In this document: positions 32,143 to 56,695 of the stretch, piece after piece
How positions within the stretch are numbered: position 1 is the first letter of the stretch
Layout: every line of letters begins with the position of its first letter
Assembly: GCF_039962255.1 (NCBI RefSeq)
Contig: NZ_JAMPKY010000002.1
Coordinates: 372,001-436,000, forward strand
From: Leptolyngbya subtilissima AS-A7
GTDB taxonomy: Bacteria > Cyanobacteriota > Cyanobacteriia > Phormidesmidales > Phormidesmidaceae
Direction of reading: 5' to 3'
Length of the DNA: 64,000 bases
The notes under the pieces: generated by a model
The model's input: only the letters and a program-made list of their open reading frames with translations
What the model was told of the DNA's origin: nothing
Databases searched by the model: none
Position numbers and translations under genes: made by a program

Positions 32143-32216
32143 GGACGTATAGCTCAGTTGGTTAGAGCACCACGTTGACATCGTGGGGGTCACTGGTTCG
32201 AGTCCAGTTACGTCCA
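32143..32216 (+). tRNA. tRNA-Val(GAC)
   Basis: A 74-nt tRNA with acceptor GGACGTA/TACGTCC and D-arm GCTCAGTTGGTTAGAGC. The anticodon stem CCACG/CGTGG encloses loop TTGACAT (GAC at 32177-32179), and the T-arm is CTGG-TTCGAGT-CCAG. CCA is partly encoded by the final TCCA. The tRNA is the left attachment site of the island; most of it from the D-arm on was re-supplied by the element. A hairpin CCTTGAAA/TTTCAAGG (32219-32242) follows and may end the transcript. Confidence 0.95.
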
Positions 32217-32220
32217 TTCC
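32162..32220 (+). repeat. attL: left 59-bp direct repeat in tRNA-Val
   Basis: The repeat begins at TTAGAGCACC in the D-arm and runs through the tRNA 3' end to ATTCC. It is identical to 56499-56557. Similarity continues imperfectly for about 22 bp more (hairpin GAAAAGCC...TTTCAAGG). Confidence 0.93.
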
Positions 32221-32394
32221 TTGAAAAGCCTACATTTCAAGGCATCTAGGGCTTGGCCCAATTGCTCGTACTACATAGTCAAAAAGTCCACCGCCATTTT
32301 GCCGCCATTCTCAAGAAGCGGTTTAGGTTTTGCTGGAGTCTAGAAAGCTCGTGGCTCGGCTAGGAGCCGCGATCGCACTGCTGATGATTGTATT

Positions 32395-32720: not shown

Positions 32721-32942
32721 CTAGGGGACAGTCTTTCCAAAGGCGACTGGAGTCCTCATGACTACCCAGATTTGATAGAGCACAACAGTCCCTTACCCTC
32801 TCGATGGGAACGTCCATGACTACTTAACTAAGACTTGGGCATCCTAGGTAAAGACGCCTTGATTGTGTTTCGTTGTCCGGGTAGTCCAACACCGACAGCG
32901 ATCAATAAGATAGAGACTTTCCCTACCGACCGATCGCCCACT

Positions 32943-35027: not shown

Positions 35028-36367
35028 GAGAGGCACTACAGACTTATGAAGAATACAAAGATAGTGGGCTTGCTTGGCTAGGTGACATCCCCAAAGACTG
35101 GAAATTAAATTTTTTAGTCAAAGTTTTATCTTCACTTGTGGACTACAGAGGGCGAACTCCCAAAAAAGTAGGTTTTGATGAAAATGGAATGCTTCTCGTC
35201 ACAGCAAAGAATATTAAACAGGGAAGTATTGACTATTCACTTTCAGAAGAATTTGTAGATATTGATGATGTTCAATCTTTACTCAATAGGGGAAAGCCAG
35301 AAGTTGGCGACGTATTATTTACTACAGAAGCTCCACTTGGCGAGGTGGCTAATGTTGATAGAACTGGTTTTGCCCTTGCTCAGAGAATTATCAAGTTTCG
35401 GGGGAACGAAAAAGCCCTCGATAACTACTTCATGAAATATTGGTTGATGTCATCAACCTTTCAATACAGCTTACAGCGTCATGCAACAGGGTCTACTGCT
35501 CAGGGGTTAAAAGGTAGTAAGGTCAGGCTACTGAATATTGTCCTTCCTAGCCTCACTGAACAGAAGGCGATCGCCCACTACCTCGACACCAAAATCGCCC
35601 AGATTGATTGCAAAATTGACTTGCTCATCCAAAAATCCCAACGCTACCAGGAACTAAAAAGAACGCTTATTAACGAAACCGTTACACGCGGTCTTGATAA
35701 GTCTGCGTCCATGAAAGATAGCGGCATCGAGTGGATAGGAGAGATTCCTGAGCATTGGTATATATATAGAATCAAAGATTTCACCTATGTCAAAGGTCGG
35801 ATTGGTTGGCAGGGTCTTCGCAGTTCAGATTTTCTAGACACAGGTGATCACTACTGCGTAACTGGTACTGACCTTATCAATGGCTTAGTTAATTGGTCAG
35901 ACTGTTACTTTGTCTCAAAGGCGAGATACGAACAAGACAAGTACATACAGCTTAATATTGGTGATCTTTTGATCACAAAAGATGGAACCATAGGAAAGAC
36001 AGCCTTAGTAGATGTATTGCCCAGAAAAGCAACATTGAATAGTGGGCTATTTGTCACAAGGCCTTTGAAAGGCAAATACTTAAACATTTTTCTATACTGG
36101 GTACTTAATTCATCCGTTTTTAGGAATTACATTGACTTAACTAAGGGTGGCTCTACAATACAGCACTTATATCAAAACGTTTTTGATCGTTTTTTGTACT
36201 GCTGTCCTCCATTGACTGAGCAGCAGGAGATCTCCAATTATCTATCTCAAAAAACCAATCATATTGATCGGATGATCGAGAATGTCAATTCAAAAATTGA
36301 AATTCAAAAAGAACTTCGCAAAACACTAATTAATGATGTCGTAACAGGCAAAATCAAGGTAACCTAA
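35024..36367 (+). CDS. hsdS: Type I restriction-modification specificity subunit HsdS
   Basis: This 447-aa protein has two target-recognition domains (about 20-185 and 240-405). Each is followed by a conserved helical spacer: LTEQKAIAHYLDTKIAQID and LTEQQEISNYLSQKTNHID, each ending near RTLIN/KTLIN. The duplicated architecture means each half reads one part of a split DNA target, spaced by the helices. Both halves are intact, so the system should be functional. The recognition sequence cannot be predicted. Translation is coupled to hsdM by a 4-bp overlap. Confidence 0.93.
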   Translation: MREALQTYEEYKDSGLAWLGDIPKDWKLNFLVKVLSSLVDYRGRTPKKVGFDENGMLLVTAKNIKQGSIDYSLSEEFVDIDDVQSLLNRGKPEVGDVLFTTEAPLGEVANVDRTGFALAQRIIKFRGNEKALDNYFMKYWLMSSTFQYSLQRHATGSTAQGLKGSKVRLLNIVLPSLTEQKAIAHYLDTKIAQIDCKIDLLIQKSQRYQELKRTLINETVTRGLDKSASMKDSGIEWIGEIPEHWYIYRIKDFTYVKGRIGWQGLRSSDFLDTGDHYCVTGTDLINGLVNWSDCYFVSKARYEQDKYIQLNIGDLLITKDGTIGKTALVDVLPRKATLNSGLFVTRPLKGKYLNIFLYWVLNSSVFRNYIDLTKGGSTIQHLYQNVFDRFLYCCPPLTEQQEISNYLSQKTNHIDRMIENVNSKIEIQKELRKTLINDVVTGKIKVT

Positions 36368-36370
36368 CTC

Positions 36371-39300
36371 ATGAGTGAACTACACCTCCAAGACAAATTC
36401 CTCATCCCCTTCATCAAGTCAGAGTTAGGCTACCGGGAAGTCAAACCCAATACTGTTACCAGTTCCCTCTTCATTGAGGAAGACCTGCAAGCCTTTATTT
36501 CCGCCACAGAACTCAATCAAAAATCCTACGAAACTCTGCTCCAAAAATATAGTGGTGATGCCAAAAAGCTTCTGGCTGACCTCATCGGTCTCATTCAAGA
36601 ACGGATCGCTAGCAGTCGGAACATGGCATTGTTCATCAATGCCAATAAATCCGTTACCCTTCGAGGAGTTAAGCTCCACCTCTTCTATACCGACGACAGC
36701 GTTATCCACGACAGCGAACTATTCAACCAAAATATTTTTTCTGTTATTCAAGAATTACCTTACAAATACGAGTATGAAGGCAAGCGTATTTTTTCCTTCC
36801 GCCCTGACCTGACCTTCTTTGTCAATGGTCTATATCTTGGCTATAGCGAACTCAAAGCTAACTTCAGCAACCAGACTGCGAAGAAAAACGGACGGGGCAA
36901 AGTCACTAAAGACTACTTTGAAGCCGTCAGAAAGTATTATGAGGTTTTCGATCAAAATTCTCACCTCAGCGACTCCGAAAAAGAACGCTACCGCCGAGAC
37001 TTACTCAAAATCTTCGAGAAAGCAATTCACATCACCACCACTGACATTGCTGAAACCTACGTTATTCGCACCATTGACCAGTTCTTTGATGAAGCCCTAG
37101 ACACTTGTAGAAAAGGTAAGTTTGATCGTGAAGAATACGATAAACACGTTTTTGAAGTCTTCAAACCTTATCCGCTTCTCAACTCTGATGCCGGCAAAAA
37201 AGACAAGCTAAAAGAGCTATTCAGCTTCCACTATGGCAAAAGCTTTATCGAAAAAGAAATTCTCTATTACAATTTCATCGAGCGAGAAGTTTACACCGTC
37301 AACGGCAAAAAGGAACTCAAAGACGAGAAAGGGCAACTCATTTGCCCCCGTCCTAAACAAAAATTTGGCACCGATAAGATCCTGGCAAAGATAGACGAGT
37401 TCCTAGAACACGAAACTGAAGATGACTACTTCATTCATCAGCTAGAGCAACAGCTTGCCCACGTTGCCCCTACAAAACGCGCCGAACTAATCGAAAAGCG
37501 CAAAACCTACGCCAACAACAAAAACGTTTATTCCCTGTTGCTGCAATATGCCGCTGGCTTTGGCAAATCTAACATTATCGGTTGGACGGCTCTACAACTC
37601 AAAGACCTCCGCCGTAATGGTGGGTATGTCTACGATAAGGTCATGATCGTGGTTGATCGCCTGCAACTCCGTAGCCAGATTGACGCCAAAATGCGGAACA
37701 TGAACATAGAAAATTCTATGTTCCTTGAGGCCCACGACAAGAAGACCTTTCAGGAAGCCCTTACTTCCGATAAACGCTTAGTCATCATCAACCTACAAAA
37801 ATTCCAAGACGTACGGAATATTCTCGATGCCGATACCCTACAAGCTTTGGCCAATCTCCGCACCGTTTTTCTAATTGACGAAATTCACCGCTCCAACAGG
37901 GGAAGCCAACACGAAGAAATGATCAATATCTTCGATGTATTACAAACGCCCTTTGATGCCAACGACACCTACAACCAAACCCGCACGAAGAAAAATCTGA
38001 TCATCGGCTTTACAGCCACCCCAGACGATAACACCCTGGCACGATTCGGAGAATTTAGCGGCTATGCCGAAAGCGAAAAGCTGTGGGTGCCCTTCGACGC
38101 TTACACCATGAATGAAGCTATCAAAGACGGGTTCATCCTCAACCCCATCAAAAATATTGTCCCCGTTGCTTCGAAGATGCTGTTTGACGTTCCCAACAAT
38201 GAGCTAGAGGGCTTTGAGGAACCAAATTACAAAGACGCTGAAAAAAAGCAAATCTACGAAGAGCCCGAACGGATAGACGCAATCAGCAGATACATTGCTG
38301 ATTTACTCGTCAAAGATGTCTATCGACAAGTCAGAGGTACGGGCAAGGCCATGCTAGCGGTATACTCCATTAAAGCCGCGATCGCCTACGCAGAAGCCGT
38401 TAAACGCCATTTTCAGGAGATCACTCAACAGCTCAAATACGCTAAATATGCGGATGCCCCGATCTATGTCGTCTATTCCAGCAGTCAAGATCAGCAAAGC
38501 GCCACTGGGTTAAATGATGGGCTTAGCGAAGAAAAAGTCTTAGAAAACTTTGCCTTGCGAAAAAACGGCTTAATTATTGTCGTTGCCAAGCTACAAACAG
38601 GGTTTGATGAGAGACGACTACACACCCTATTCCTCGATAAAGAAATTAAAGGTATTCCCGCAATTCAAGCCATTTCACGGGTAGACCGAACTGCCAAATA
38701 TAAAAACGACTGTAAGATCGTTGACTTCTCCTACAACAACGTCAACGTCCAAAATATCAAAGAGGCCTTCGAGCATTTTTCTGATGTCGTGGTGAGTGAC
38801 TTCGACCCATTCAGTGATCAACGGGTTTTAGACATCGTCTTTTCGGAACTCAAAAAGTCTGGGGTTTACAACCAGTTCTTTGATCTCTTCCTGCAAATCT
38901 TCAATGATGATGCCAAACGCAATGATCCAGAAAGCTACCTTGACCTAGAAAGCAGCATTGAGAAACACATCTCAGCCAACCCTCAGCATACGGCTGATGC
39001 CAAAGCGAAAGCGGCTCAATACTTCACTATCCTCAACCGTATCGAATATGTCATCACATTAGATGATAAATACAAAGAGCCAACCTTTCTGGCATTCTTA
39101 CGCTTATTTAATAGGCTCTATAATCAGTTGCATCGCACCGATGATGTAAAAGATCCCATTGAAGTCTACTTTGATAATCAGATCGGCATTATCGAAGTTG
39201 AACTACAAGAAACTGAGCAAAAAGAGAAACGAGAGACCAAAGTTGCTAAGGGCAAGGAACTCAGCAGCACAGTCTACCAATTTGACATTCTAACAATTAT

Positions 39301-39595
39301 TGAAGCCCGTAATGAGCAAGAAGAACTCAAAGCCGAACGTATTAAAGAGTTTGAGTCAAAAATCCAAGATTTATTCAAATATGTTAGGGGATCTGAAGAA
39401 GGGAAACGCCTGATCGTCAAAATCAATTCTGACGTATCCGAAGATGAAATCTATGATGACTTCGCCAAAATCTACCGAAAATATAAAATCCTTAATCGGA
39501 AGACCGTAGGAGAGTATTTTTTCAGAGAAATGGAAGATCTCGTCAACAAACTCTGTGATGACTTTGAAGCCATGATACTTAATTCCAGCAAATAA
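36371..39595 (+). CDS. hsdR: Type I restriction-modification motor/endonuclease subunit HsdR
   Basis: This 1074-aa protein starts 3 bp after hsdS. The N-terminal nuclease domain has the PD-(D/E)xK pattern (RPDLTFF, then SELK, at about 142-160). The SF2 translocase follows with a variant Walker A (AGFGKSN, about 395), DEIH (about 503) and GFTATP (about 550). Later helicase motifs and a helical C-terminal domain complete it. It pumps DNA and cuts at a distance when the HsdS target is unmethylated. It is full-length with no frameshift. Confidence 0.93.
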   Translation: MSELHLQDKFLIPFIKSELGYREVKPNTVTSSLFIEEDLQAFISATELNQKSYETLLQKYSGDAKKLLADLIGLIQERIASSRNMALFINANKSVTLRGVKLHLFYTDDSVIHDSELFNQNIFSVIQELPYKYEYEGKRIFSFRPDLTFFVNGLYLGYSELKANFSNQTAKKNGRGKVTKDYFEAVRKYYEVFDQNSHLSDSEKERYRRDLLKIFEKAIHITTTDIAETYVIRTIDQFFDEALDTCRKGKFDREEYDKHVFEVFKPYPLLNSDAGKKDKLKELFSFHYGKSFIEKEILYYNFIEREVYTVNGKKELKDEKGQLICPRPKQKFGTDKILAKIDEFLEHETEDDYFIHQLEQQLAHVAPTKRAELIEKRKTYANNKNVYSLLLQYAAGFGKSNIIGWTALQLKDLRRNGGYVYDKVMIVVDRLQLRSQIDAKMRNMNIENSMFLEAHDKKTFQEALTSDKRLVIINLQKFQDVRNILDADTLQALANLRTVFLIDEIHRSNRGSQHEEMINIFDVLQTPFDANDTYNQTRTKKNLIIGFTATPDDNTLARFGEFSGYAESEKLWVPFDAYTMNEAIKDGFILNPIKNIVPVASKMLFDVPNNELEGFEEPNYKDAEKKQIYEEPERIDAISRYIADLLVKDVYRQVRGTGKAMLAVYSIKAAIAYAEAVKRHFQEITQQLKYAKYADAPIYVVYSSSQDQQSATGLNDGLSEEKVLENFALRKNGLIIVVAKLQTGFDERRLHTLFLDKEIKGIPAIQAISRVDRTAKYKNDCKIVDFSYNNVNVQNIKEAFEHFSDVVVSDFDPFSDQRVLDIVFSELKKSGVYNQFFDLFLQIFNDDAKRNDPESYLDLESSIEKHISANPQHTADAKAKAAQYFTILNRIEYVITLDDKYKEPTFLAFLRLFNRLYNQLHRTDDVKDPIEVYFDNQIGIIEVELQETEQKEKRETKVAKGKELSSTVYQFDILTIIEARNEQEELKAERIKEFESKIQDLFKYVRGSEEGKRLIVKINSDVSEDEIYDDFAKIYRKYKILNRKTVGEYFFREMEDLVNKLCDDFEAMILNSSK

Positions 39596-39689: not shown

Positions 39690-40520
39690 CTATATTTCTG
39701 CGATTAAAAATTGGATAATTTCCTTTGCACATTCTAAATCTATCTCAAAAAATTCGCCTGCTTTCTTGAAGTTAGCAAGCTCTTCATGGATACGTTGCTC
39801 AACGATATATGGATCTTTTGTTCGCCAGTAATCGACGACCTTAAATGATGTCGGTAGTCCATACTGTTCGCTCAGTTCCCTTGCGCGTTTATCAGGATTT
39901 CGGGCTGTGAAACCAATTTTGTACACACCTGGCATAAGATCATTAGCTAGGAGATAAACGAAACCTTCCTCGACCTTACTATGGTTTATATCAATTGATT
40001 CCCATTTGCGTCTTTGCTGAGTTATCTGAAGATGTGTTTCTTCACGCTTTGCTATTTTCTCCCTGTTTTGAGCTTCTCGTGCATCAGCAATGTAATTTAG
40101 AAGTGCTTGGCAATGGGACTGGCCTGTATCCATAAAGTTTTTTACTTCATCGATTACCTTTAGAATTTCTACAGGAGCTTTACTAGCATTGTAAATCTCA
40201 AAAAGCTCTTCCCAGCTCTCGTTTAGTCTTGCCCAAGTATGTCCTGATTGCCAGTCAATATCTAGTTCGCCGATTCTTGATAAATCAATTGTTCCAGCAT
40301 TAATTCGCTTGATATAGAGATTTTGCGTTTTTATCTTGGTTAGAGCCATCTCGCCCATGCTACAGATGTAGTACATGACCCTGCTTCCAGCCTCACTATG
40401 GCTACATATTTTTTCTAGATAGTCAAATCCATAAGTTTTCTCATATCTTTCTTGCCACTCCTCAGTGTACTTCCATGAGTCGGGGCAATCTAATTTTTCT
40501 GGAAGGTTAATTAAGCTCAT
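39690..40520 (-). CDS. T5orf172 / GIY-YIG-type nuclease-domain protein
   Basis: This 276-aa protein has a helical N-terminal half and a C-terminal T5orf172 (MUG113-like) domain of the GIY-YIG superfamily, at about 185-275. The signature is GFVYLL, then GVYKIGFT, a conserved Arg in RARELS, and the metal-binding Glu in EQRIHEEL. The final EFFEIDLE is typical. Such domains occur in phage and mobile-element proteins; nicking or regulatory roles are suspected. It is convergent with the type I restriction operon and could be an accessory nuclease. Confidence 0.8.
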   Translation of the reverse strand: MSLINLPEKLDCPDSWKYTEEWQERYEKTYGFDYLEKICSHSEAGSRVMYYICSMGEMALTKIKTQNLYIKRINAGTIDLSRIGELDIDWQSGHTWARLNESWEELFEIYNASKAPVEILKVIDEVKNFMDTGQSHCQALLNYIADAREAQNREKIAKREETHLQITQQRRKWESIDINHSKVEEGFVYLLANDLMPGVYKIGFTARNPDKRARELSEQYGLPTSFKVVDYWRTKDPYIVEQRIHEELANFKKAGEFFEIDLECAKEIIQFLIAEI

Positions 40521-44690: not shown

Positions 44691-46274
44691 TCATCTATTC
44701 TTAGAAGTAATTGTTTTTACGTCTACATCCTCCAAACCTAATTGTTTGAGCAAGCAGACTTCTAGCAAGACTCTTAACTTTCTACTCAAAACTAACAAAT
44801 CTTGACCAGAAGCCACGTACTCATCCTGCTCAGAAGATAAATGAGTCAAATAATTTCTTGTTTTCCTAATCTTTTTAAGAAAATCGCTCTGCTCCTCTGG
44901 GGACGCAAAGAAATTATCAGGCAAACAAAAGCGATATTCACTTATTATCTCCTCTAAACGTTCTCTTAAAGAGAAACTATTTAAATGTGAAAGTTTTTCC
45001 TCCTTCAAAATTCTTTTGTATTCTCTTAAATCTAAACTTTCCTCTGTTTCGTTTTCTAGAGCAATAGAGTCTGGAATGGAATTTACAGCTTCTTCTAATG
45101 TCTTTCGTACTACCTTCTTGTAAATCCTTTTATCTATGTGTCTCCCAGAGTGTGCAAGGCTATGAAATGCTTCAATGGCTTGAGCAAGACTAAGAAAAAA
45201 GTCATTAATATGCCGTCTTGGTATATAGGTCAATCTTAGGTATAGGTCGATGATTGACTCCAATTCTTTTGAATTCTGTTCCCAAAGTCTTAGAAGTTCA
45301 GTGAATTGATCTTTTACGTCCTTGAAGCTAAATAAGACTCTCTGAGAATTGAACTTAGCATCTAAATCTTCTGATTCTCCAACTTGGAAATATATCTCAA
45401 GTGGAATAAACTTCTCCTTTTCTTCTTCAATAGCTTTCACCTCTTCACCAAAATCATGTATTTCAAAACCCAAATCACTTTTTGCAGTACGCTCAGGCTT
45501 GATTAAGCCTGCCATTAAAGCAAAATTGAGATGATCAGGTATCCTAACTTCTTTTTCTATAACTACAATGCCTGATTGAATTTCATATGGATACGTCATT
45601 TGACCAGATGCAAAAATTAGCAGCTCTTGAAATAAGTAGATAACATCAACAACGTCTTCTAATCTTTTTTCATTATCTGCTCGAATAATAATAGATTTCC
45701 TCTCTTCAAGAGAAACCTTCCTGCCTATATTTCCAAAAAAACCAGCTATTTGTAGTCTTTCCAGCTCAACTGGCTTGTCATAAAGAACCAAAGAAAAATC
45801 TAGTAGTTTGCCAAGTTCAATAGGTTCTAGTGTTACCTGTTTTACATTGATTTCTTTGACCTGATTATGTTCATCGTTGGTAGACCAATTAATCTCAAAG
45901 TTCGGCAAGTCTACCCAGTCTTCTAAATTTTTATATCTTAAAGAAACACCTTTCAAGAGAATTTCTTCTAACGTCTTGAAGTGATGCCCAATTATCAGAT
46001 ACTTTGCATGAACTGTACTAGTTTGAATACCTGTTTTAAATCCTATGGGCTGAAAACAATTACATAAAGTGACCTTCTTCCCGTTGACTAAATATCCATT
46101 TACAATATCAAATTCCAATCTTTGAGGAATCGTATTATCAAATTTAATTTCTTGTAGCTGATCAAGTAGATAGAGTTTTGGAGGCTCTTCAGCGGAGAAT
46201 GTAAGCCGACCGGATATTTCCTTATCTGGATTATTGGGAAGGAACCAAACGCCGTCTTCTTCAATGCTTTTCAT
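44691..46274 (-). CDS. apeA: ApeA-like antiphage HEPN protein
   Basis: This 527-aa protein has the ApeA layout. A beta-rich N-terminal sensor region (about 1-190, starting DGVWFLPNNPDKEISGRLTF) is followed by a middle domain and a C-terminal HEPN domain. The HEPN region contains FFLSLAQAIEAFHSL and the catalytic RNYLTH (R473-x4-H478). ApeA proteins are single-gene abortive-infection systems; the HEPN domain is a ribonuclease that cleaves host tRNA or other RNA when phage is sensed. The R-x4-H motif is intact, so activity is plausible. It is monocistronic in the island. Confidence 0.75.
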   Translation of the reverse strand: MKSIEEDGVWFLPNNPDKEISGRLTFSAEEPPKLYLLDQLQEIKFDNTIPQRLEFDIVNGYLVNGKKVTLCNCFQPIGFKTGIQTSTVHAKYLIIGHHFKTLEEILLKGVSLRYKNLEDWVDLPNFEINWSTNDEHNQVKEINVKQVTLEPIELGKLLDFSLVLYDKPVELERLQIAGFFGNIGRKVSLEERKSIIIRADNEKRLEDVVDVIYLFQELLIFASGQMTYPYEIQSGIVVIEKEVRIPDHLNFALMAGLIKPERTAKSDLGFEIHDFGEEVKAIEEEKEKFIPLEIYFQVGESEDLDAKFNSQRVLFSFKDVKDQFTELLRLWEQNSKELESIIDLYLRLTYIPRRHINDFFLSLAQAIEAFHSLAHSGRHIDKRIYKKVVRKTLEEAVNSIPDSIALENETEESLDLREYKRILKEEKLSHLNSFSLRERLEEIISEYRFCLPDNFFASPEEQSDFLKKIRKTRNYLTHLSSEQDEYVASGQDLLVLSRKLRVLLEVCLLKQLGLEDVDVKTITSKNR

Positions 46275-46624: not shown

Positions 46625-46879
46625 TCACTCAATAATCACATATCGAGTTAAGACTCTCATAACCTCGTTCACCTTACCTGTCGGTACAGGTTTGCTCCAT
46701 TCGCGTACCTCTGCGAATCCAACTCGGTACAGTTCATGGATCACTCGTTCTATGGCGAAAGCGGAACCTGTGAGAGTAAGCAAGACCTTTTCTCTACCAG
46801 GTTCGGCGGTGGATTCGGTGGTCATAGGTGCCTGGGTATTGGCACTGGGTAGGGAAGAAGGCAGGAAGGCTTGAGGCAT
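46625..46879 (-). CDS. Small conserved cyanobacterial protein, divergent from XRE gene
   Basis: This 84-aa protein ends in a compact alpha/beta domain: VLLTLTGSAFAIERVIHELYRVGFAEVREWSKP is the core (here split as VLLTLTGSAF, IERVIHELYRVGF and REWSKPVP). From memory, close versions occur in many cyanobacteria beside XRE-type genes. The pattern beta-alpha-beta with GFAEV looks like a small ferredoxin-like fold. It is divergent from the XRE gene at 46,910 with only 30 bp between, so the two are co-regulated. Confidence 0.6.
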   Translation of the reverse strand: MPQAFLPSSLPSANTQAPMTTESTAEPGREKVLLTLTGSAFAIERVIHELYRVGFAEVREWSKPVPTGKVNEVMRVLTRYVIIE

Positions 46880-46909: not shown

Positions 46910-47251
46910 ATGACAAACGCATCATACCGCACCCCTCTAGAGAATGTCATCTCTTGCGATTACATTTACGATCCCATGCTTCTTTGGGACGATGGGGACA
47001 TGGGAAGAGCAGGAAAAGCGCTACGGGAAGTCCTCACGCAGTACGGCATTAGCCAAAACAGCCTTGCTGTAAAAATGGGCTTGCAGCGATCGGCTATCTA
47101 CAAGTGGTTCCATGAGGAACGCGATCCGACAGCAGAGACAGTTGCGGACATTGTGGAAGCTCTAAAAGGCTTAAACGGCGAGGCCGCCGAAGCTTTCGTC
47201 GATTTCTACCTAGGCAATATGCTCAAAAACCAAGACCTTAATCAACCGTAG
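46910..47251 (+). CDS. XRE-family HTH regulator
   Basis: This 113-aa protein has a Cro/C1-type HTH at about 35-90: LREVLTQYGISQNSLAVKMG, then SAIYKWFHEERDPTAETVADIVEAL. Upstream residues (DYIYDPMLLWDDGD) are conserved-looking and may be functional. It could be the regulator or antitoxin partner of the HEPN-motif protein 116 bp downstream, and is divergent from the small gene at 46,625. Confidence 0.85.
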   Translation: MTNASYRTPLENVISCDYIYDPMLLWDDGDMGRAGKALREVLTQYGISQNSLAVKMGLQRSAIYKWFHEERDPTAETVADIVEALKGLNGEAAEAFVDFYLGNMLKNQDLNQP

Positions 47252-47285: not shown

Positions 47286-47367
47286 GCGGGAAGCACCTTT
47301 TGGCTAGGGAAAATACATAGCGTTGATGCGTTACGCTATCGATAACACCTCCTACACACTGTTTAGC

Positions 47368-48012
47368 ATGTCGAAATCAATACCCGAAAATGAGGATTAT
47401 TATATAGCGCCAGGAATTTTAGGCTTCTACGAAGAGGGAGTTCCTGTAGCTTTGGATGAAAGCAGTGATCAAAGATTAGATCCTGAAAATATAGATGACA
47501 AAATAAAAATTTATGAGAGAGAGGTGAGCGGATGGTTTTTGAATAAGGCTGAAGCGATTTTGCAAGATCATTCAACACAATATGGATTTGTTGCTTTAAT
47601 GATCTGTATTTCTTACTTTGAAGGAGTTGAGCAATACAAGACGGGGATTTCAAGTCATGGAAAAAGTGGAGATTTCTTTGCAAATTCAGTTAGGAGGCTA
47701 TATGGAGATAAATTCAAAAAAGATGAAATAGATTTCTTGTATTCTAGTGCCAGATGTGGACTTTTTCACAATGGAATGATTAAAGGTCAAATTGTCCTGA
47801 ACTGTGATTTTCAAGATTCAATTAAAATTGATGAAATCACACATTTGCGGAAAACAAAAGGGAAAAAAGAAAAGAAATTTGCTTGCCATATTAATCCCAG
47901 AAAAATGCTAGAAGATATAAAAGAAGATTTTTGCGCTTTTGTGAGGGAGCTGCGTGATGAGAATAATAAAATTTTGAGAGAAAACTTTGATCGCATGTTT
48001 GAGATTCTTTAA
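47368..48012 (+). CDS. HEPN-motif protein, candidate ribonuclease effector
   Basis: The ATG at 47368 (MSKSIPENED) is preferred because the 15 codons before it overlap repeat DNA; this gives 214 aa. The second half is helical and holds ARCGLFHNG, with R129 and H134 forming R-x4-H, the catalytic signature of HEPN ribonucleases. GFVALMICISYFEGVEQY before it is the usual first long helix. It may be a toxin or defence effector controlled by the XRE gene upstream. The family is not one I can name; the motif is clear. Confidence 0.6.
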   Translation: MSKSIPENEDYYIAPGILGFYEEGVPVALDESSDQRLDPENIDDKIKIYEREVSGWFLNKAEAILQDHSTQYGFVALMICISYFEGVEQYKTGISSHGKSGDFFANSVRRLYGDKFKKDEIDFLYSSARCGLFHNGMIKGQIVLNCDFQDSIKIDEITHLRKTKGKKEKKFACHINPRKMLEDIKEDFCAFVRELRDENNKILRENFDRMFEIL

Positions 48013-48089
48013 AATTAAATTTGATTTTAGTTTTACTTTGATAGGGTAAATGGATGTTATTCATCATTAAATGTAAGCTGTTCTAATAA

Positions 48090-48209
48090 GTAAGTAGGGT
48101 GGGCATTGCCCACCATTAAAATTAAAATGCCCCAGTTGGTCTAATCTTCCTTAAAACCAGGCCAGTTCAGCAGGTTGCATTGGGGCGATCGCCCATTCTC
48201 TTTGCTGGG
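48090..48209. repeat. Direct repeat 1 flanking the IRG-type GTPase gene
   Basis: About 120 bp nearly repeat at 49782-49902. Shared blocks include GTAAGTAGGGT, TGCCCACCATTAAA, AGTTCAGCAGGTTGCATTGG and GGCGATCGCCCATT. It starts with a GTGGGCATTGCCCAC palindrome. Confidence 0.85.
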
Positions 48210-48399
48210 CATAGGAAGTCTTATTGCCCGGATCTTCTGAATTGAGAATTGTTTTGCTGTCGGTTGTAGATTGGTCGAAATTAGTAGGGCGAGCTAAAGA
48301 CCTGTGGATTAGCCCACTGCTGATAAACAATATCCATTCCCCATCACCACAAACCTTGATGGGAAGATCAACATGTCTATCCACAGCGGAAATCAGCAT
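48151..48399 (-). pseudogene. Remnant of a small protein ending EWAIAPMQPAELAWF
   Basis: An 82-codon frame whose last third lies in direct repeat 1. The same C-terminal sequence (WAIAPMQPAELAWF) is encoded again in direct repeat 2, without the upstream part. The N-terminal two-thirds has weak coding character. Probably the end of a once intact gene that was duplicated. Confidence 0.35.
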
Positions 48400-48454
48400 T
48401 AAGGTTTTTCTTGCCCTGTCGTCTACATAATATTAATAATCTTATTTTTGAATC

Positions 48455-49558
48455 TTATATTAGTTCGCTCAGAATTTCCTTAGCTAAATCTTCTGCTTCT
48501 TCAACGATTTGTTCGCATAGCCAAAAAGTCGCTGTCCCCCCTATGCCAGCAGCAACGAGCTGGCCAACAATTGGAATCCATTTGGTTGTTTGTTTTGCTA
48601 CCTGGCGAGTAGCAGTTTTCTTTAGTAGTAATACCAATCCTTCCTTCGCTAAATATTTAGCAGAAAATTGAGTGATTTTAGCCAGCAAGCCCGGAACGGC
48701 ACCCGCGCCTAAAAGTCTTTTGATGTACTCAAATTGACTTGATGTAAGCCCATAGATATTAGCAACTTCATTCCCAAACTTCAGCAAAAGACTCATGTCT
48801 ACAGCGATGTCAACTCCAATAATTGGATTGACTCCATTAGCTGCGGCCAGAAATGCATATAAAGGAATCCTATCTCTAGCAAGCTTGCCCTTTTTTTGAA
48901 GAGCCTCTTGACTATAAGTACCCATATCAGCTACAAATCTTTGTTGCTTCAATCCATCCAAAGCCTCAGCGATATCGCGAAGAAGATTGCCTAGGTCATA
49001 CTCTGTGGGTTTACGAGCAGATATAAGATATATTTTTTCGGGACGTGATGGAGAGAGGTTCACTAAAATATCATTAGTAATTATTTTTCTGGTTTCATCT
49101 TCTGAGTGCCCATTATCATACATTCCATCCTCAACGGCAGTATCAAACTTGTTGCGGATGACAAAGCAGAGTTTTCCTATTTTGGAAAGCTCCTGAAAAA
49201 GGAATACATCATTTTCTGTAAAACGATTTGCTGTGACGAGTAAAAAGCAGTCATAGGTAGTTAATTTTAGATTCTCTATGTACCCTTCTCGAGGGAACTT
49301 AAGTGTTCCACACCCAGGAAGATCAACAAATCTAATGCCTTGATGAACAAATGCCTGCGCTTCCAGAGTGGTTTCGACAACCCCGACTGCTGATACCTTT
49401 TCCCCAGCTATGGCATTGATGAGCGATGATTTTCCACTTCCAGATGCGCCTATTAAGCCACACAAAACCTCTGCTTCATCAAATTCATTAATTTTCTTCC
49501 TGCACTGTTCTGCAAAAGCTACAACTTCAGCAATCAAGCTTTCTGGAGTGGTCGTCAT
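48455..49558 (-). CDS. IRG-type (interferon-inducible-like) GTPase
   Basis: This 367-aa dynamin-related GTPase of the immunity-related (IRG/IIGP) type has G1 GASGSGKS (37-44) and VVETT at 60-64, the IRG switch I feature. DLPGCG at 79-84 is G3, and NRFTENDVFL at 111-120 is the characteristic IRG helix. G4 is RNKFD at 135-139. The C-terminal half (about 210-367) is helical with hydrophobic stretches (IVGQLVAAGIGGTATFW) that could insert into membrane. In animals IRGs attack vacuoles of intracellular pathogens; bacterial homologues have unproven roles. Here it lies in a defence-rich island between two direct repeats. Confidence 0.85.
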   Translation of the reverse strand: MTTTPESLIAEVVAFAEQCRKKINEFDEAEVLCGLIGASGSGKSSLINAIAGEKVSAVGVVETTLEAQAFVHQGIRFVDLPGCGTLKFPREGYIENLKLTTYDCFLLVTANRFTENDVFLFQELSKIGKLCFVIRNKFDTAVEDGMYDNGHSEDETRKIITNDILVNLSPSRPEKIYLISARKPTEYDLGNLLRDIAEALDGLKQQRFVADMGTYSQEALQKKGKLARDRIPLYAFLAAANGVNPIIGVDIAVDMSLLLKFGNEVANIYGLTSSQFEYIKRLLGAGAVPGLLAKITQFSAKYLAKEGLVLLLKKTATRQVAKQTTKWIPIVGQLVAAGIGGTATFWLCEQIVEEAEDLAKEILSELI

Positions 49559-50038
49559 GGTTTGCCTTAAAGAGATTCAAAGGGATAGTGACATATATTC
49601 ACTCTTCCCAAGATCGCGGGTTGTAGGCCTAGCTCAGGATAATCATCTACTTTTTATGACAAAAGTTTAAATTTTCGACTTAGAAAGATATATTCGTAGC
49701 CAAAGACACAAAAGCGTCTAGATCGCATAGATGATCGCTTCCAACAAGAGAAAATCATCTTCTTTGGCAGCTACGCCCGTAGTAAGTAGGGTCGGCACTG
49801 CCCACCATTAAATTTAAGCTGCCCTAGTCAGCCCAGTCTTCCTTGAAACCAGGCAAGTTCAGCAGGTTGCATTGGGGCGATCGCCCATTGTCTCTACTGG
49901 TGGGCAGTGCCCACTCTACCGTGGCTGCGTGCACTTCGAAGCCCGAGCTGCAGTTCTAGAGACAGAACTGGCACAGCTCAAAAATGTGCTTGAGCAACTT
50001 GCCTATACCTCATACGATTGAGAACCGCTATAAATATT
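49559..50038. other. Gap with repeat 2 and a coiled-coil protein remnant
   Basis: Direct repeat 2 occupies 49782-49902. Just after it a short + strand frame (about 49,929-50,024) ends in a heptad pattern (AVLETELAQLKNVLEQL). That pattern resembles the C-terminus of Uma2-type or transposase-like proteins. No intact gene. Confidence 0.4.
49782..49902. repeat. Direct repeat 2 flanking the IRG-type GTPase gene
   Basis: Second copy of the repeat at 48090-48209, about 85 percent identical by eye. It is followed by another palindrome of the GTGGGCAGTGCCCAC type, so the copy is bounded on both sides by such palindromes. Confidence 0.85.
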
Positions 50039-50179: not shown

Positions 50180-53071
50180 TCAGAACTCGATTATAAGATT
50201 GTCGTCATCCTCTTCTCCTAAAGTATGTTCTCTAGGGAAATAGTCTTCTAACTCATTGCGGAACTGATCACTGAAATAGTGAGGACTCAAAGCCTCTTTT
50301 AATTGAGAAGGGCGACCTAAATCTAGAGTGTCTTTTGTAGGCACTACCTGAACTTCTGCTCTCTTCAACTCTCGGCGCTGAATGACCTCCTCAAAGTATT
50401 CATCGATATTAACCTCGGGAATCTGAAATTCTTTACCGTCAGCATAATGTCTCTTGCTAACCACCTTCAGACCTACACAGGCAAGAATCTTACGAGCGAT
50501 GGCGTTTTCTTTTTTCAACTTGCTGATATCAATACCGAAGAGAAGCTTGATGTCTGCTGAGTGCTCCCTAGCAACCTCTACTAGCTCTTTAATGTCTTCA
50601 ACGGTAATAGACTGAGCATTGTCCCTAAAATAGCCTAGGTTAAGGTCACAGGCCAGTCTGACGGTATCAAGGCAGAAGTCCTTATCAGGAGCGTAATAAT
50701 CTTTCTGCCACTCATCTTTCTGCTCAGCCAACTTGGGGTCGTTCAGATACTCAACCAAACGAATGGCTTGCCAATTGTCATCTTTCTGGTAGAATTTTAC
50801 ATCTTCTTTAATAACATCATTAATAACCAGCGATCGCCTGATGAGACACTTTATCAAACTAGCACTCTCGTCCGGTGTCAACTCTTTCTTTTCTTGAAGA
50901 ACTTCTATGTCTACATCTTCAGCATTGATGATGGACTCAATCTTAGAAACCTTGATAAACTCTTTAGCCTGCTTGTAGATGATGTCTAATTCAGTCATCT
51001 CACCATCAAGGAGTTCAGTCTCAGTGACAAAGTACCCTTCAGCACGGAATTTCTCACGCATCGCTTGGAGGGGGAAAGCGTGTTGGCGAGAGTTCTTAGC
51101 CATCATTGCGGCCTTAAGACGATCGAACGGAGTAGCTACAGCCTTCTTCGGTACATCGTTCAAATCAAAAACTTTTTGTTGTGCAGACAAAATATCAGCT
51201 AAACATTCCGCTTCAGTCTTCGCTAGTTTAGGATTAGTGGTTGATACACACCATACGACGCGATCGCAACCAGAACGTACCCTATGTAGCCCCTGAGCAA
51301 ACATCTCAATGGTTGTAAGTTTCAGTTGGTAGATACCACCTACAAAGTTGAAATGACCGTTGGTGAGGCTGATAGCAGTTGCTACAGAAGGAGAACCAAT
51401 CGATCCAGCAGGACGATAGTTATCAGGGTCGTTGAAGATTTGAGGATAATTAGCTTTTGTGTCACTGGTTATAGCGTCAAACTCAGGGTAGATAGTACCA
51501 AGGATGGTAACCGTCGCCGCAAGATCACAGTAGATGAAAGGAGTGCGACATTTAATAGTGTTGTCAAGGTCTGTCAGTACCGCCTCCATATTTTTGCTGG
51601 TACGAATCTCCAGGTTAGTCATTCCACCTGCTTTCCCCTTATGAGCTAGAGGCTGGTACATATTTACCAGGAACTCTCCACCTTCGGTGAGTTCGTTGAT
51701 GTAGTTGTAGGTGGCTTCCGATATGTCAGCATCTAGGTACAGTAAACCCTCACAGGTTGAGACCATTTCCTCTAGAGCCATCCTAACTTCATTACGATTA
51801 GATCCAAATGTGCTGCTAAGGGTCAGGTCATTCAGAGTGCTCTCCACTTCATCGATGATGGTTACACAGCCAGAACGCATCTCAGCAGGGATATGAGGAA
51901 TCGAGTTTATACAGATGACATAACGACCACCCCTGCGGTAATCACCGCCTTTGACGTTGCGGTAGTCCACAAACCCTAGATCGTTCACCAACTTATCTAC
52001 GATGGACTGACGGTTAGAGACGACCAGAACCATCTTGGGATCATTGAACTGATTCACCCATCGTTTGATGAGGGTGGTCTTGCCAGTACCCTTGGCAGCC
52101 TTGATTCCCAACTTAGGGTGATTCTCAACTGGGTAGTTTGAGGTGTACTCCTGGTTTAGTACGATCGCATTTTCAGGAGCGTTGTACTTATAGATAACAG
52201 GAACCCAATACTCGTCGTAGTTGGTGGTCGAGTAAGACCAGGTGCCATATTGGTCAGCCCAGCGATGGTAGAGGTCATTGATTCTCTCTAAGGTGTCGTC
52301 AGTGATGTCAGGTATGAACTTCTCGATGTCACTGAAAACTTCCGAGAGAGGAACACCGTAATGAATGAGTTTGCAAGCTAGGTAAATGCTGTAGTTGTAA
52401 CGATTGCCTTCTTCGTACTTACCAGCGCGATCGTTTGCGTACCCTATGCAGTTCTCAATGACCTCCTCAAGCGTTGCTGCAAAAGTACCTGTCGGAATAT
52501 CCTCGATCTCACCCAACTCAGGTTCGGGGCCAACGACAACAGGGCAGGACTCCCAATCTTCTCTTATCCAAAGCTCAGGGTCATAAGAGAGGAAGTTAAG
52601 CCGTCCAATATTTGAACATTGAGGATCAAGTTTAATACCTCTGGCCTCAAACCGTATGCTGAGTTCACGGAAAGCACTCTTGTAGTTACCCTCATAGAAA
52701 GCAAGAAAGCCGTATCCCGCTCCAGAAACACTCTTCCAGCAGGCTACAACTTCAGGGTATTGGACGATTTGATCGAGAGTGATGTCTAGTTCATCTTTGT
52801 CCAGGTACATCACTCCGCTGACTTTATCTATACAGTCATCTTTGCGGATAGGGAAGGTTCCAGCCCAGGTAATGCCAGGTAGTTTCTTCTTTTCAGCTTT
52901 ATAATGCTTGCTTTTGCCTTCCTTCTGGTAAATATCTCTTACAATTTTTGCCTGTTCATTAGTGCGAATACTGTCCAGCGCATCTAATATTGCGGTGGTG
53001 TGAGCAGGTACAGTAGAGTTCTCGTGTGAAAACTTGAAAACTGATACTGGTGATTCGAGAATGGATTTCAT
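50180..53071 (-). CDS. Primase/helicase-like replication protein of the element
   Basis: This 963-aa protein has an N-terminal region (about 1-180) like the VirE_N/BT4734-type primase-associated domain: TWAGTFPIRKDD, VMYLDKDELD, and SVSGAGYGFLAFYEG. A helicase-type ATPase follows, with Walker A GTGKTT at about 326-331 and a DEVE box (VTIIDEVESTL) at about 402. Later motifs (AQGLHRVRSGC) resemble UL9/origin-binding SF2 helicases. The last 300 residues are helical. It probably initiates replication of the excised element at a nearby origin. Similar proteins are known from cyanobacterial plasmids and satellites. Assignment is by motif. Confidence 0.75.
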   Translation of the reverse strand: MKSILESPVSVFKFSHENSTVPAHTTAILDALDSIRTNEQAKIVRDIYQKEGKSKHYKAEKKKLPGITWAGTFPIRKDDCIDKVSGVMYLDKDELDITLDQIVQYPEVVACWKSVSGAGYGFLAFYEGNYKSAFRELSIRFEARGIKLDPQCSNIGRLNFLSYDPELWIREDWESCPVVVGPEPELGEIEDIPTGTFAATLEEVIENCIGYANDRAGKYEEGNRYNYSIYLACKLIHYGVPLSEVFSDIEKFIPDITDDTLERINDLYHRWADQYGTWSYSTTNYDEYWVPVIYKYNAPENAIVLNQEYTSNYPVENHPKLGIKAAKGTGKTTLIKRWVNQFNDPKMVLVVSNRQSIVDKLVNDLGFVDYRNVKGGDYRRGGRYVICINSIPHIPAEMRSGCVTIIDEVESTLNDLTLSSTFGSNRNEVRMALEEMVSTCEGLLYLDADISEATYNYINELTEGGEFLVNMYQPLAHKGKAGGMTNLEIRTSKNMEAVLTDLDNTIKCRTPFIYCDLAATVTILGTIYPEFDAITSDTKANYPQIFNDPDNYRPAGSIGSPSVATAISLTNGHFNFVGGIYQLKLTTIEMFAQGLHRVRSGCDRVVWCVSTTNPKLAKTEAECLADILSAQQKVFDLNDVPKKAVATPFDRLKAAMMAKNSRQHAFPLQAMREKFRAEGYFVTETELLDGEMTELDIIYKQAKEFIKVSKIESIINAEDVDIEVLQEKKELTPDESASLIKCLIRRSLVINDVIKEDVKFYQKDDNWQAIRLVEYLNDPKLAEQKDEWQKDYYAPDKDFCLDTVRLACDLNLGYFRDNAQSITVEDIKELVEVAREHSADIKLLFGIDISKLKKENAIARKILACVGLKVVSKRHYADGKEFQIPEVNIDEYFEEVIQRRELKRAEVQVVPTKDTLDLGRPSQLKEALSPHYFSDQFRNELEDYFPREHTLGEEDDDNLIIEF

Positions 53072-54356: not shown

Positions 54357-54875
54357 ATGCCAGGTGGAAAGTTAAGCCCAGACCAATGCAGTCTAGCCAT
54401 TAGAAAAGAAAAAGCCTCTGAACTAAGGCTCAAAGGCTACACCTTTAGACAAATCGGCGAAGAATTAGGGGTTTCTCACGTTCAAGCCTTTCAAGATGTC
54501 CAGGTATCTCTCTCTGAGACTAGATCTCATACGGCTGAAATATGTGAAAACCTTCGAGAACTCGAAGGTCAACGGCTGGATGGCATTTGGCTAAAACTGT
54601 CCACCACACTAGTCAGCACTGGAAGCCCTAGCGATCTGGCTAAACTCACTCAACAGTTACATCGAAACATTGAGTTAAGGATGAGGCTCTATGGCCTAGA
54701 AAGCGCTAAACGTCTTGAGATTCAAAACATGATGGACGTGCAAGTTACTGAGTTCATCAATGTTCTGGAGAAAATATTACCTGAAGACACCTACCAAGAG
54801 ATTTTGAATGCGATCGATAAAATCTCTGATCTTTACGAGCAGCCTTCCATAACAGTAATTCCCAATGAAAGCTAG
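54357..54875 (+). CDS. Terminase-small-subunit-like HTH protein
   Basis: This 172-aa protein has an N-terminal helix-turn-helix (about 20-45, ELRLKGYTFRQIGEELGVSH) of the type found in small terminase subunits and in replication or transposition regulators. A helical body follows with LTQQLHRNIELRMRLYGLE. No large terminase subunit is present, so a DNA-recognition role other than packaging, or helper-phage-dependent packaging, is possible. A decayed homologue lies at 32,395 at the other end of the element. Confidence 0.6.
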   Translation: MPGGKLSPDQCSLAIRKEKASELRLKGYTFRQIGEELGVSHVQAFQDVQVSLSETRSHTAEICENLRELEGQRLDGIWLKLSTTLVSTGSPSDLAKLTQQLHRNIELRMRLYGLESAKRLEIQNMMDVQVTEFINVLEKILPEDTYQEILNAIDKISDLYEQPSITVIPNES

Positions 54876-55007: not shown

Positions 55008-55280
55008 ATGAAAATGAATTGTACTCTACTAACTTCCGAAGAAGCTTGTGAATTTCTAAAATGCGAAAAGGATACCCTCAAGAGCTTAAGGGAGCACTGG
55101 ATTGAAGGCGTTCACTATTTTAAGAGAGGCAAAGGACTCACAGCACCAATTTTATTTAATAGAGAGTTGATTTTTGATTGGTTAGCAAACCAGTCCTCTC
55201 CTCATGCCCACCAAGTTGCCATAGAAAACTTTCGGCGATCGCTACCTAGTGGGCAGAAGCGCAATAGAAAAGCCAGTTAA
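55008..55280 (+). CDS. Excisionase-like small DNA-binding protein
   Basis: This 90-aa protein starts with a winged-helix/HTH_17-like pattern: LTSEEACEFLKCEKDTLKSLREHW, then a wing (VHYFKRGKGLTAPILFN) and a short helix. Its 3' end overlaps the convergent integrase 3' end by about 3 bp. Size, fold pattern and position beside the integrase fit a recombination directionality factor that promotes excision. An equivalent role as a regulator is possible. Confidence 0.6.
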   Translation: MKMNCTLLTSEEACEFLKCEKDTLKSLREHWIEGVHYFKRGKGLTAPILFNRELIFDWLANQSSPHAHQVAIENFRRSLPSGQKRNRKAS

Positions 55281-56374
55281 AACAACTCCGGTGTTTTTGG
55301 ATGGCTTTTGATCAATCCGGCATAGTTTTGGTACAGTGTCTTGACATCATGCCCAGTAATCGCCGCTACCTCTACCGGGTTCATACCTGATTCAAGAGCA
55401 TGAGAGATAAACGTGTGGCGAGTATTATAGTAACGACGGTAGGGCACTCCCTGAGCCTCTAAAACCTTCCGCCATCCACGCTTACCAAAGTTACCCTCTG
55501 TGATTGCACCGCCCTTTGGTGCTGGAAATACCAAACTATCAGGGTCAACGTTGGTAGGTCTACGAAAACGCAACATTGCCCCCAGGCTGTCAGATAGCTT
55601 CACGTCTCGATCCTTGCCAGTCTTGGTTTCCTTGAACTCGCCATGAGTATGAGCTTCACCAAACCAAATCACAGTGCAATCTTCGTTCAAGTGTCGCCAG
55701 CGAAGACCATTAGCCTCTCCAGTTCGACAACCACAGCTAAATTTGAATCTCACATAGTCGGTGTAGTGGTTATAGCGACAATGTTCCGCAAAACCCTTGA
55801 GTATGCGCTGTACTTCGTCCTTAGTAAAGGCTTTGGGCTTCTGCTTAGGCCGATTCCTGACCCTCAGTTCTACCCAAGGGTTATCCTTCACGAGTTCTTG
55901 CTTGATTCCCCATTTCCAGCCAGATTTCAGCAACCCTAGCCTTTCTTGGCTGGTGACTGGTTCCATATTCTCATTGAGCCAGTGAATGAAGTCCTCAGCA
56001 TCCTTCTCCGTAGCAGGGCGATCGCCATAGAACTCTCTAAGCCAAGTCAGCAGCCCTTTATATTTTTCTAAAGTTCTATGCTGTACCTTCTTGGTCTTGA
56101 ACTCGATGAACCGCTCAAACAGCTTCACAGCCCCTAGATCCTTGGCTGGCTCAAGACTGCGATCGCCCTTGTACTTCTTAAGACTTGGATCAAAGTTACC
56201 GCTGATTATGTCCAACTTGATCTGGTGGGCCAACTGGTGGGCCACTGCCAGGTTGATCGGTTCATACCGTAGACCAGGGCTGAACCACTTCCGCTTACCC
56301 TCGTAGCGCCATACAAGCTGAATCCAACCGTCACTGTCATTTATGCTGATTTCGCCCTTAGGAGTCCTAGGCAT
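55277..56374 (-). CDS. int: Tyrosine recombinase (integrase) of the tRNA-Val element
   Basis: This 365-aa integrase has a short Arm-binding-like N-terminus (MPRTPKGEISIN, about 1-65), a core-binding SAM-like domain (about 78-170) and the catalytic domain. The catalytic residues are Arg217 (CRTGEA), Arg319 (YNTRHTF), His342 (TGHD) and nucleophile Tyr351 (YQNYAG). The usual HxxR His is Tyr316 here. It should recombine the 59-bp repeats at tRNA-Val to integrate and, with the small excisionase-like protein, excise the element. It starts 125 bp inside attR, as expected for tRNA-targeting elements. Confidence 0.93.
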   Translation of the reverse strand: MPRTPKGEISINDSDGWIQLVWRYEGKRKWFSPGLRYEPINLAVAHQLAHQIKLDIISGNFDPSLKKYKGDRSLEPAKDLGAVKLFERFIEFKTKKVQHRTLEKYKGLLTWLREFYGDRPATEKDAEDFIHWLNENMEPVTSQERLGLLKSGWKWGIKQELVKDNPWVELRVRNRPKQKPKAFTKDEVQRILKGFAEHCRYNHYTDYVRFKFSCGCRTGEANGLRWRHLNEDCTVIWFGEAHTHGEFKETKTGKDRDVKLSDSLGAMLRFRRPTNVDPDSLVFPAPKGGAITEGNFGKRGWRKVLEAQGVPYRRYYNTRHTFISHALESGMNPVEVAAITGHDVKTLYQNYAGLIKSHPKTPELF

Positions 56375-56498: not shown

Positions 56499-56557
56499 TT
56501 AGAGCACCACGTTGACATCGTGGGGGTCACTGGTTCGAGTCCAGTTACGTCCATTCC
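56499..56557 (+). repeat. attR: right 59-bp direct repeat, 3' part of tRNA-Val
   Basis: Identical to 32162-32220. It contains only the tRNA sequence from the D-arm to the 3' end, so it is not a functional tRNA. It marks the right boundary of the island. Confidence 0.93.
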
Positions 56558-56695
56558 CTGAAAAGCCGCCATTTCAAGGCCTTTAATGATTGACACTGGG
56601 GTGCGATCGCATTTAGAAACGGGTGTGCACTTAACGGATTTAAACGGAACGATCAGGGTTTTAGCGCTTCAATGGGTACAGAATGGGTACCCGAA

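Follow-up and report, generated by a model that had tools for sequence, protein, structure and literature searches.

The locus described here lies in a stretch of 64,000 nucleotides (contig NZ_JAMPKY010000002.1, positions 372,001 to 436,000; the window), which we take to be cyanobacterial from its gene content and the GCGATCGC motif. The gene under study (48455..49558, minus strand, ATG to stop) encodes a protein of 367 residues that was assigned to the immunity-related GTPases (IRGs; PF05049). It lies between two direct repeats of 120 bp and next to a divergent gene pair, termed X-HTH, which consists of a short open reading frame (ORF; X) and a helix-turn-helix (HTH) regulator. The mobile unit containing the IRG gene is an integrative island of 24.3 kb inserted at a tRNA-Val gene.

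The family assignment was based on profile, sequence, and structure comparisons. The ORF matched the PF05049 (IIGP) model of Pfam with E=1.7e-32 and 113.4 bits (cut-off 24), and the last ~80 residues fell outside the match. Its predicted layout is an N-terminal helix, a G domain at about residues 30-185, and a helical C-terminal part; its motifs are the P-loop GASGSGKSS, DLPGCGTxxFP, NRFTEND, and NKFD. In a single-sequence phmmer search of the PDB, 13 IRG sequences led the matches, from mouse Irga6 (3.4e-25) down to 3.1e-17, and the first non-IRG match was Der (7.9e-4). A profile built from 8 bacterial relatives likewise placed IRGs first (1.5e-41 to 2.4e-35), followed by Der (1.7e-14), and its top alignment to an IRG of the PDB spanned positions 5-280, past the G domain. 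A Foldseek search with an AlphaFold model, which was built from two sequences, returned 38 IRG chains on top (9.7e-14 to 3.7e-10) and then GIMAP7 (5e-8). Among GTPases of known structure the IRGs are the closest to this protein, also outside the G domain, and the gene is, judged from its sequence, a bacterial member or a very close relative of the IRG GTPases. An earlier reading of the sequence alone (the original prediction) had already named an IRG-type GTPase that keeps the IRG-specific switch and G4 region. The family name was borne out, and so were the motifs, since DLPGxGxxxFP and RFxxND align with Irga6, with the caveat that G4 is NKFD here and TKVD in Irga6.

The vertebrate IRG (p47) GTPases Irga6/IIGP1, IRGB10, and IRGB6 have the P-loop GxxGSGKSS, DLPGxG, FP, and RFxxND in common with the bacterial protein, and the helical part is partly alignable. 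Their PDB chains are about 411-423 residues long, compared to 367 here, and unlike them the bacterial protein has Cys after DLPG and NKFD in G4. The Dynamin_N model of Pfam gave 25.6 bits (cut-off 27), the LeoA model of PADLOC matched the G domain with 5e-8, and the models of Era, Der, and YsxC showed G-domain similarity, all below their cut-offs. Bacterial dynamin-like phage-resistance proteins (DynA, PMC8844932; the LeoA/LeoBC models of PADLOC) have the large-GTPase logic in common with the protein, which unlike them is no dynamin by Pfam. In comparison with the 87% identical copy of the congener G572, 143 synonymous and 52 nonsynonymous differences were counted (dN 0.065, dS 0.967, dN/dS 0.067); by these substitutions, the gene is under strong purifying constraint.

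The target of the island is tRNA-Val (gac), located with ARAGORN at 32143..32216 (plus strand). The left attachment site (attL, 32162..32255, plus strand, 94 nt) comprises the 3' part of this gene and the DNA downstream of it, and is 91% identical to the right site (attR, 56499..56592, plus strand, 94 nt), which duplicates the tRNA-Val 3' part; the two copies are 24,337 bp apart. A tyrosine integrase (55277..56374, minus strand; PF00589 2.9e-15, PHROG integrase 1.4e-45) adjoins attR, and a primase/helicase-like replication protein is encoded at 50180..53071 (minus strand; PF08800 5.3e-11, PHROG replication 4.4e-22). The G+C content of the island is 0.433, versus 0.562 and 0.546 in the two flanking stretches. 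The congener G522 (locus L190) provides the empty site: its left flank (96% identity) and right flank (97%) are joined directly through tRNA-Val (100%) and a single att copy (98% over 82 nt), and the island is absent. With an integrase, an att duplication of the tRNA 3' end, and an empty site in a relative, this is a tRNA-targeted integrative island, and the IRG gene is therefore its cargo. A related integrase (68-70% at the DNA level) stands beside the same tRNA in four other congeners (L193, L194, L201, L207), so the gene is a recurrent integration target.

The original prediction placed the GTPase among antiphage genes, and these were recovered on the same island. ApeA, a HEPN antiphage protein (44691..46274, minus strand; PF18862 3.3e-37, HEPN_Apea 1.2e-23, PADLOC), lies 2.2 kb from the IRG gene. 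A type I restriction-modification system (32835..39595, plus strand) is composed of HsdM (32835-35027), HsdS (35024-36367), and HsdR (36371-39595), as called by PADLOC and, for HsdM, Pfam, and is followed by a T5orf172/MUG113 nuclease-like protein (39690..40520, minus strand; PADLOC candidate PDC-S57). Defence hotspots and integrative islands are similar in their tRNA integration, integrase, and clustered defence genes; defence islands of E. coli are the subject of PMC10121019.

Some minor features of the island ends were also recorded. The segment 30880-31004, located 1.2 kb upstream, shares 80% identity with 32066-32190, a stretch containing the 5' part of tRNA-Val, and is perhaps the scar of an earlier insertion. 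Near the right end, a 172-residue ORF (54357-54875) matches PHROG 645 (annotated RNase E), and a broken relative of it was seen by eye at the left end, at about 32380-32590; because of this pair, the island may descend from a phage or a satellite.

The two repeats around the IRG gene are 120 nt each, in the same orientation, and 87% identical, as the original prediction described them. Copy 1 (48089..48208, plus strand) starts with a palindrome of the repetitive extragenic palindrome (REP) type tagged GTAG, and forms both the right border of the slot of the neighbouring ORF1 and the left border of the IRG segment. Copy 2 (49781..49900, plus strand) is joined by an inverted palindrome at 49895-49919, so that the whole element spans 49781..49919; this palindrome has arms of 25 nt that are 88% complementary, is in the opposite orientation, and closes the upstream repeat copy. 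In a whole-genome search the second copy was found with E=1.8e-35, and the flanking pair is therefore not a chance occurrence. The palindromes GTGGGCATTGCCCAC / GTCGGCACTGCCCAC are present in the flanking repeats where they had been predicted, but GTAGGGTGGGCANTGCCCAC with up to 2 mismatches occurs at 68 genome sites (38 + 30), versus 0 + 0 for the reversed pattern, and the palindrome alone is therefore a dispersed repeat that is not specific to the IRG gene. As a short GTAG-tagged palindrome with many dispersed copies, it belongs to the GTAG REPs. According to the part of PMC3733652 that concerns them, such REPs are known also in cyanobacteria, share the tag, the short palindrome, the dispersed copies, and some inverted pairs, and have been proposed to move by Y1-type transposases. 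Unlike plain GTAG REPs, the palindrome here is embedded in a repeat of 120-140 bp that is tied to X-HTH cargo slots. A short ORF (48166-48411, minus strand) has its stop codon inside the 120-bp repeat, ends in MQPAELAWF, and gave no Pfam match.

In the window, X (46628..46879, minus strand, 84 residues; no match in Pfam, NCBIfam, or PHROG) is the divergent partner of an Xre/Cro-type HTH regulator (46910..47251, plus strand, 113 residues; PF01381 1.2e-9), and inverted repeats at the HTH 5' end (46894-46915/46945-46966) look like a putative operator. The first cargo behind the HTH gene is ORF1 (47323..48012, plus strand, 229 residues, TTG start; no match in Pfam, PADLOC, NCBIfam, or PHROGs), followed by the first repeat, the IRG gene on the other strand, and the second repeat. 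At 1e-6, 111 of the 388 class genomes contain homologues of X, often in several copies.

A search for the same repeats around other cargo genes had been suggested with the original prediction and proved productive. Among 26 genomes of the genus, with at most 33 candidates scored per genome, the 120-bp repeat gave 25 matches at 1e-10 in 17 genomes. Five of these are uninformative since their contigs end within 2.1 kb upstream (G572, G560, G631 twice, and G615). An X-HTH pair lies upstream, within 2.8 kb and on the same strand, in 18 of the 20 informative copies; of the exceptions, L130 has an X fragment only and L159 neither X nor HTH. A profile search of 39 loci yielded 40 repeat matches at 1e-3. 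All 32 matches in the 18 loci that could be oriented by an HTH gene lie downstream of that gene and on its strand; the remaining 8 are in loci without HTH, which were oriented by the repeat itself and so are uninformative on strand. Of the 20 loci in the first locus set, 18 had been picked for carrying the repeat. A reverse count was made on 18 loci picked by HTH without a listed repeat (L141, L142, and 16 others). Eight of them have a close X (at least 55% identity), and four of these eight (L141, L149, L150, L154) extend no more than about 1 kb beyond the module; in the other four the repeat is present in L142, L143, and L147 and lacking in L144. It was found in none of the ten loci with a diverged X (<50% identity), and the repeat therefore goes with one X subtype.

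The exchange of cargo was seen at orthologous sites. At one site in five species (L123, L124, L129, L131, L133), the left flank, X, and HTH are 84-92% identical at the DNA level and the right flank 87-95%. Similarity ends in or near the HTH 3' end in 9 of 10 pairs, the exception being L124 and L133, which have a further ~210 bp in common that form the start of related cargo ORFs, and restarts at the repeat in 10 of 10, usually with further unshared DNA before the right flank. A sixth species, L134, matches L131 on both flanks, and L127 has only the right flank of this site. A second site (L128, L132, L136, L143, L144) also combines common flanks with different cargo and is less clean, with the repeat aligning in only part of the pairs and missing from L144. 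Cargo fills 16 of the 18 HTH-oriented slots. The other two, L125 and L126, are empty, and in them 14 and 36 bp separate the end of the HTH match from the repeat. Recognised antiphage families occupy 5 of the 16 filled slots, namely AAA and DUF4435 genes (AriA/AriB, PARIS-like) in L132, Mrr_cat in L134, HsdS/HsdM in L135, AAA_21 with AbiLi as the best PADLOC model in L137, and GmrSD_N with a RiboL-PSP HEPN gene in L143. X-HTH pairs of this kind head exchangeable, often antiphage, cargo slots throughout the genus, and at other loci of the genus the 120-bp repeats behave like boundaries of cargo that is exchanged. Defence hotspots likewise have syntenic flanks with variable cargo; unlike them, the slots here are defined by an X-HTH head and a specific repeat. 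No report of X-HTH/repeat slots was found in a literature search of incomplete coverage.

Relatives of the GTPase were sought in several collections. In the 388 genomes of the class, 16 had a protein match at 1e-8, full length only in the own genome and G572 (87%), and the other 14 reached E 3.2e-11 or weaker at 25-29% identity. PF05049 matched in 164 of 386 genomes of the phylum at 1e-3 (91 above the cut-off), and the best match elsewhere scored 40 bits versus 113.7 for the own protein; these weak matches were set aside by score alone. Plasmid records contained copies from Azospirillum thermophilum (37.7% identity) and Deinococcus sp. QL22 (27.9%), each over 95% of the query, and a species-level genome collection contained one from Flavobacterium saccharophilum (41%). 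A family search of the genus Flavobacterium gave matches at 1e-10 in 4 of 299 genomes, F. saccharophilum included. Among the matches listed in a genome-collection scan, nine loci were found, and the alignment covered almost the entire query only in L063; L064, at the end of a contig, matched in the N-terminal residues 9-68, and the other seven match parts of residues 6-121 only. Neither of the two pattern matches in a viral-contig scan is a relative. Among phages, a record lacking annotation matched in part, over residues 212-363. As judged by these sequence matches, the family is rare among the genomes searched and scattered over four phyla.

The neighbourhoods of eight copies were compared. 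The Deinococcus gene stands within a BREX locus, flanked by pglZ and brxC; DarT and McrBC are also present there. WYL-domain regulators, which co-localise with phage-defence loci (according to the relevant part of PMC9122601), adjoin three of the four Flavobacterium copies: in L063 and L089 a WYL-WCX regulator is 49 and 44 bp away, tail to tail with the IRG gene, and in L091 one lies 461 bp upstream, together with a DUF559 gene. About 5 kb from the IRG gene of L089, an AAA_21 gene lies beside an ORF with a sub-threshold RloB match, which was counted as marginal. The 3.6-kb contig of G572 has an X-HTH pair, with HTH and IRG genes tail to tail, and then an LRAT-domain gene; the IRG gene is here directly behind a different HTH paralogue, on the opposite strand. 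The regulators found tail to tail with the IRG gene in G572, L063, and L089 suggest that its expression is controlled, by an Xre-type or a WYL-type protein depending on the host. Among the neighbour ORFs scanned, defence genes within 10 kb are clear in 2 of the 8 copies and marginal in 1, a regulator or slot typical of defence is all that was found in 3, and 2 have neither. The original prediction counted a lack of enrichment of bacterial homologues near defence genes against itself; the neighbourhoods do not show such a lack, and, as a count of eight copies without matched controls, they suggest an enrichment rather than measure one. In the BREX locus, the Deinococcus IRG gene is directly followed by a second small GTPase (L060:11553-12257), which is weakly IRG-like (17.6 bits, below the cut-off) and is a possible partner.

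The explanation considered best, with a probability of roughly 55%, is that the IRG-type GTPase is antiphage cargo of the tRNA-Val island, held in a repeat-bounded segment next to X-HTH. Under this reading, the GTPase would be kept at a low level of activity by the neighbouring regulator, X-HTH in the window, or by low affinity. Upon infection, GTP-driven oligomerisation would take place by way of the G domains. The helical C-terminal part may, in analogy to the animal proteins, act on a membrane, and the outcome, protective against phage, would be either abortive arrest of the infected cell or disturbed phage assembly. Several observations weigh against this reading. A close copy is present in just 2 of the 388 genomes of the class, both of this genus, and 20 other listed members have none; this is too few for population statistics. 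Flavobacterium L090, whose contig starts 567 bp upstream, and the Azospirillum copy have no recognised defence neighbour, and most slot cargo shares the strand of HTH, whereas the IRG gene of the window does not. Confidence in the AlphaFold model is limited to the G domain (mean pLDDT, the predicted local distance difference test, 54.6), residues 211-367 being below 50, and membrane action rests on analogy for this reason. In addition, the equivalent of Ras Gln61 is Cys (Cys83) and not the large hydrophobic residue described for IRGs at this position (in the part of PMC1297648 that treats it). None of the relatives has Gln at this position: G572 and all four Flavobacterium copies have Cys as well, and those of Azospirillum and Deinococcus have Tyr.

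The original prediction went further and proposed, from the flanking repeats, that the gene forms a cassette able to move or to be lost. A cassette that is moved by recombination at the two 120-bp repeats, in an integron-like or a repeat-mediated manner, is considered unlikely, even though same-orientation repeats stand on both sides of the gene and, in the genus, exchangeable cargo has the repeat at its right end, on the HTH strand in all 32 profile matches of the 18 HTH-oriented loci. Multi-repeat arrays such as L137 and the empty slots are also in its favour, as is the position of the IRG gene beside different X-HTH paralogues in two species, from which it follows that the gene changed slot or slot type, not demonstrably by the 120-bp repeats. 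However, no allele was found that lacks the IRG gene between its two repeats, and the G572 gene has no 120-bp repeat in the 312 bp assembled upstream, where the contig ends. The DNA similarity of the IRG segment to G572 extends from 10 bp past the stop to ~120 bp upstream of the start, short of the repeats. Because no IRG-less allele was found and the island with its empty site explains the mobility, the cassette was not accepted as a demonstrated mobile unit. An integron was thought of because the repeat has complementary arms and the genus has integron integrases (TIGR02249 above the family cut-off in 13 of 26 genomes). The core sites of integron attC are RYYYAAC and GTTRRRY. An attC nature of the repeat is not supported: its arms, GCCCAAT/ATTGGGGC, are without AAC/GTT, its fold is not conserved, and no copy was located near the 8 integrases. 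In 25-30 of 30-32 copies the two arms can pair; 4 cells have changes on both sides, and the pairing is broken several times. An alignment of 34 copies gave no conserved secondary structure (alifold energy -0.44, covariation term unfavourable). The repeat occurred in 0 of 8 integrase neighbourhoods, in which a simple-script attC scan found one isolated hairpin (L188) and no array, and the integron integrase of the own genome is fragmented (G000:C4:261773-262710).

It is also improbable that the GTPase is a cellular housekeeping or membrane-maintenance protein hitch-hiking on the island. The Azospirillum copy, which lies between phospholipid-synthesis and ABC-transporter genes, and the sub-threshold similarity to Era, Der, and YsxC would fit such a role, but the sporadic spread in the class and in Flavobacterium, the placement inside BREX and beside X-HTH, and a match to IRGs that is far better than that to housekeeping GTPases of known structure all argue against it. 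Very unlikely, finally, is a GTPase that is paired with ORF1 or X-HTH and acts as the regulatory or antitoxin-like component, not as an effector. ORF1 and the IRG gene are neighbours and the tail-to-tail regulators would be compatible with this, but there is no ORF1 on the 3.6-kb G572 contig and no partner gene is common to the neighbourhoods viewed.

Antiphage cargo of the tRNA-Val island thus remains the preferred reading. A wider form of it, advanced tentatively and with less than even confidence, is that a bacterial IRG-type immune GTPase of Cyanobacteria, Bacteroidota, Pseudomonadota, and Deinococcota defends against phage and is, in this genus, one of many genes in previously unrecognised slots made up of X-HTH, cargo, and the 120-bp repeat. 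STING, viperin, and gasdermins are among the animal immune proteins that have counterparts in bacteria. Should the GTPase protect against phage, the IRGs would join them, and animal IRG immunity would have a prokaryotic counterpart, of interest as an immune protein shared by animals and bacteria. No report of a bacterial IRG as a phage-defence protein was found in the literature searched, which was incomplete in coverage. IRG-like cyanobacterial GTPases were mentioned in 2005 by Bekpen et al. (PMC1297648), in a passage that leaves the relationship unestablished and gives no defence context; by their description, they likewise are bacterial, cyanobacterial, and have an IRG-like G domain. Whether such bacterial GTPases are truly related to the IRGs, the question of 2005, would then become testable along with their function. 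The X-HTH/repeat slots would also provide a simple finder of unknown defence genes in the genus, by reading the DNA between HTH and repeat.

Further cargo was recorded from the remaining slots and modules, in family scans that leave out the second cargo ORF of L134 and a 72-residue ORF of L123. Outside the recognised antiphage families and the TIR, NACHT, and AIPR genes of the diverged modules, this cargo is without an assigned function or does not resemble defence genes; it includes an ankyrin protein (L127), a pentapeptide protein (L147), and a Y1 transposase (L142) whose Y1_Tnp match of 22.7 bits is below the cut-off of 23; in L123, a Y1_Tnp ORF with 25 bits lies 112 bp past the repeat. The diverged modules have TIR and pentapeptide genes in L153, NACHT in L146, and AIPR in L157 and L158, and a nitrogenase-type oxidoreductase is near that of L156. 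Arrays of same-orientation repeats in L137, L139, and L140 are placed between genes that were named toxin-antitoxin-like by eye, and a similar ORF in L128 matched PIN with 20.7 bits, below the cut-off of 23.6.

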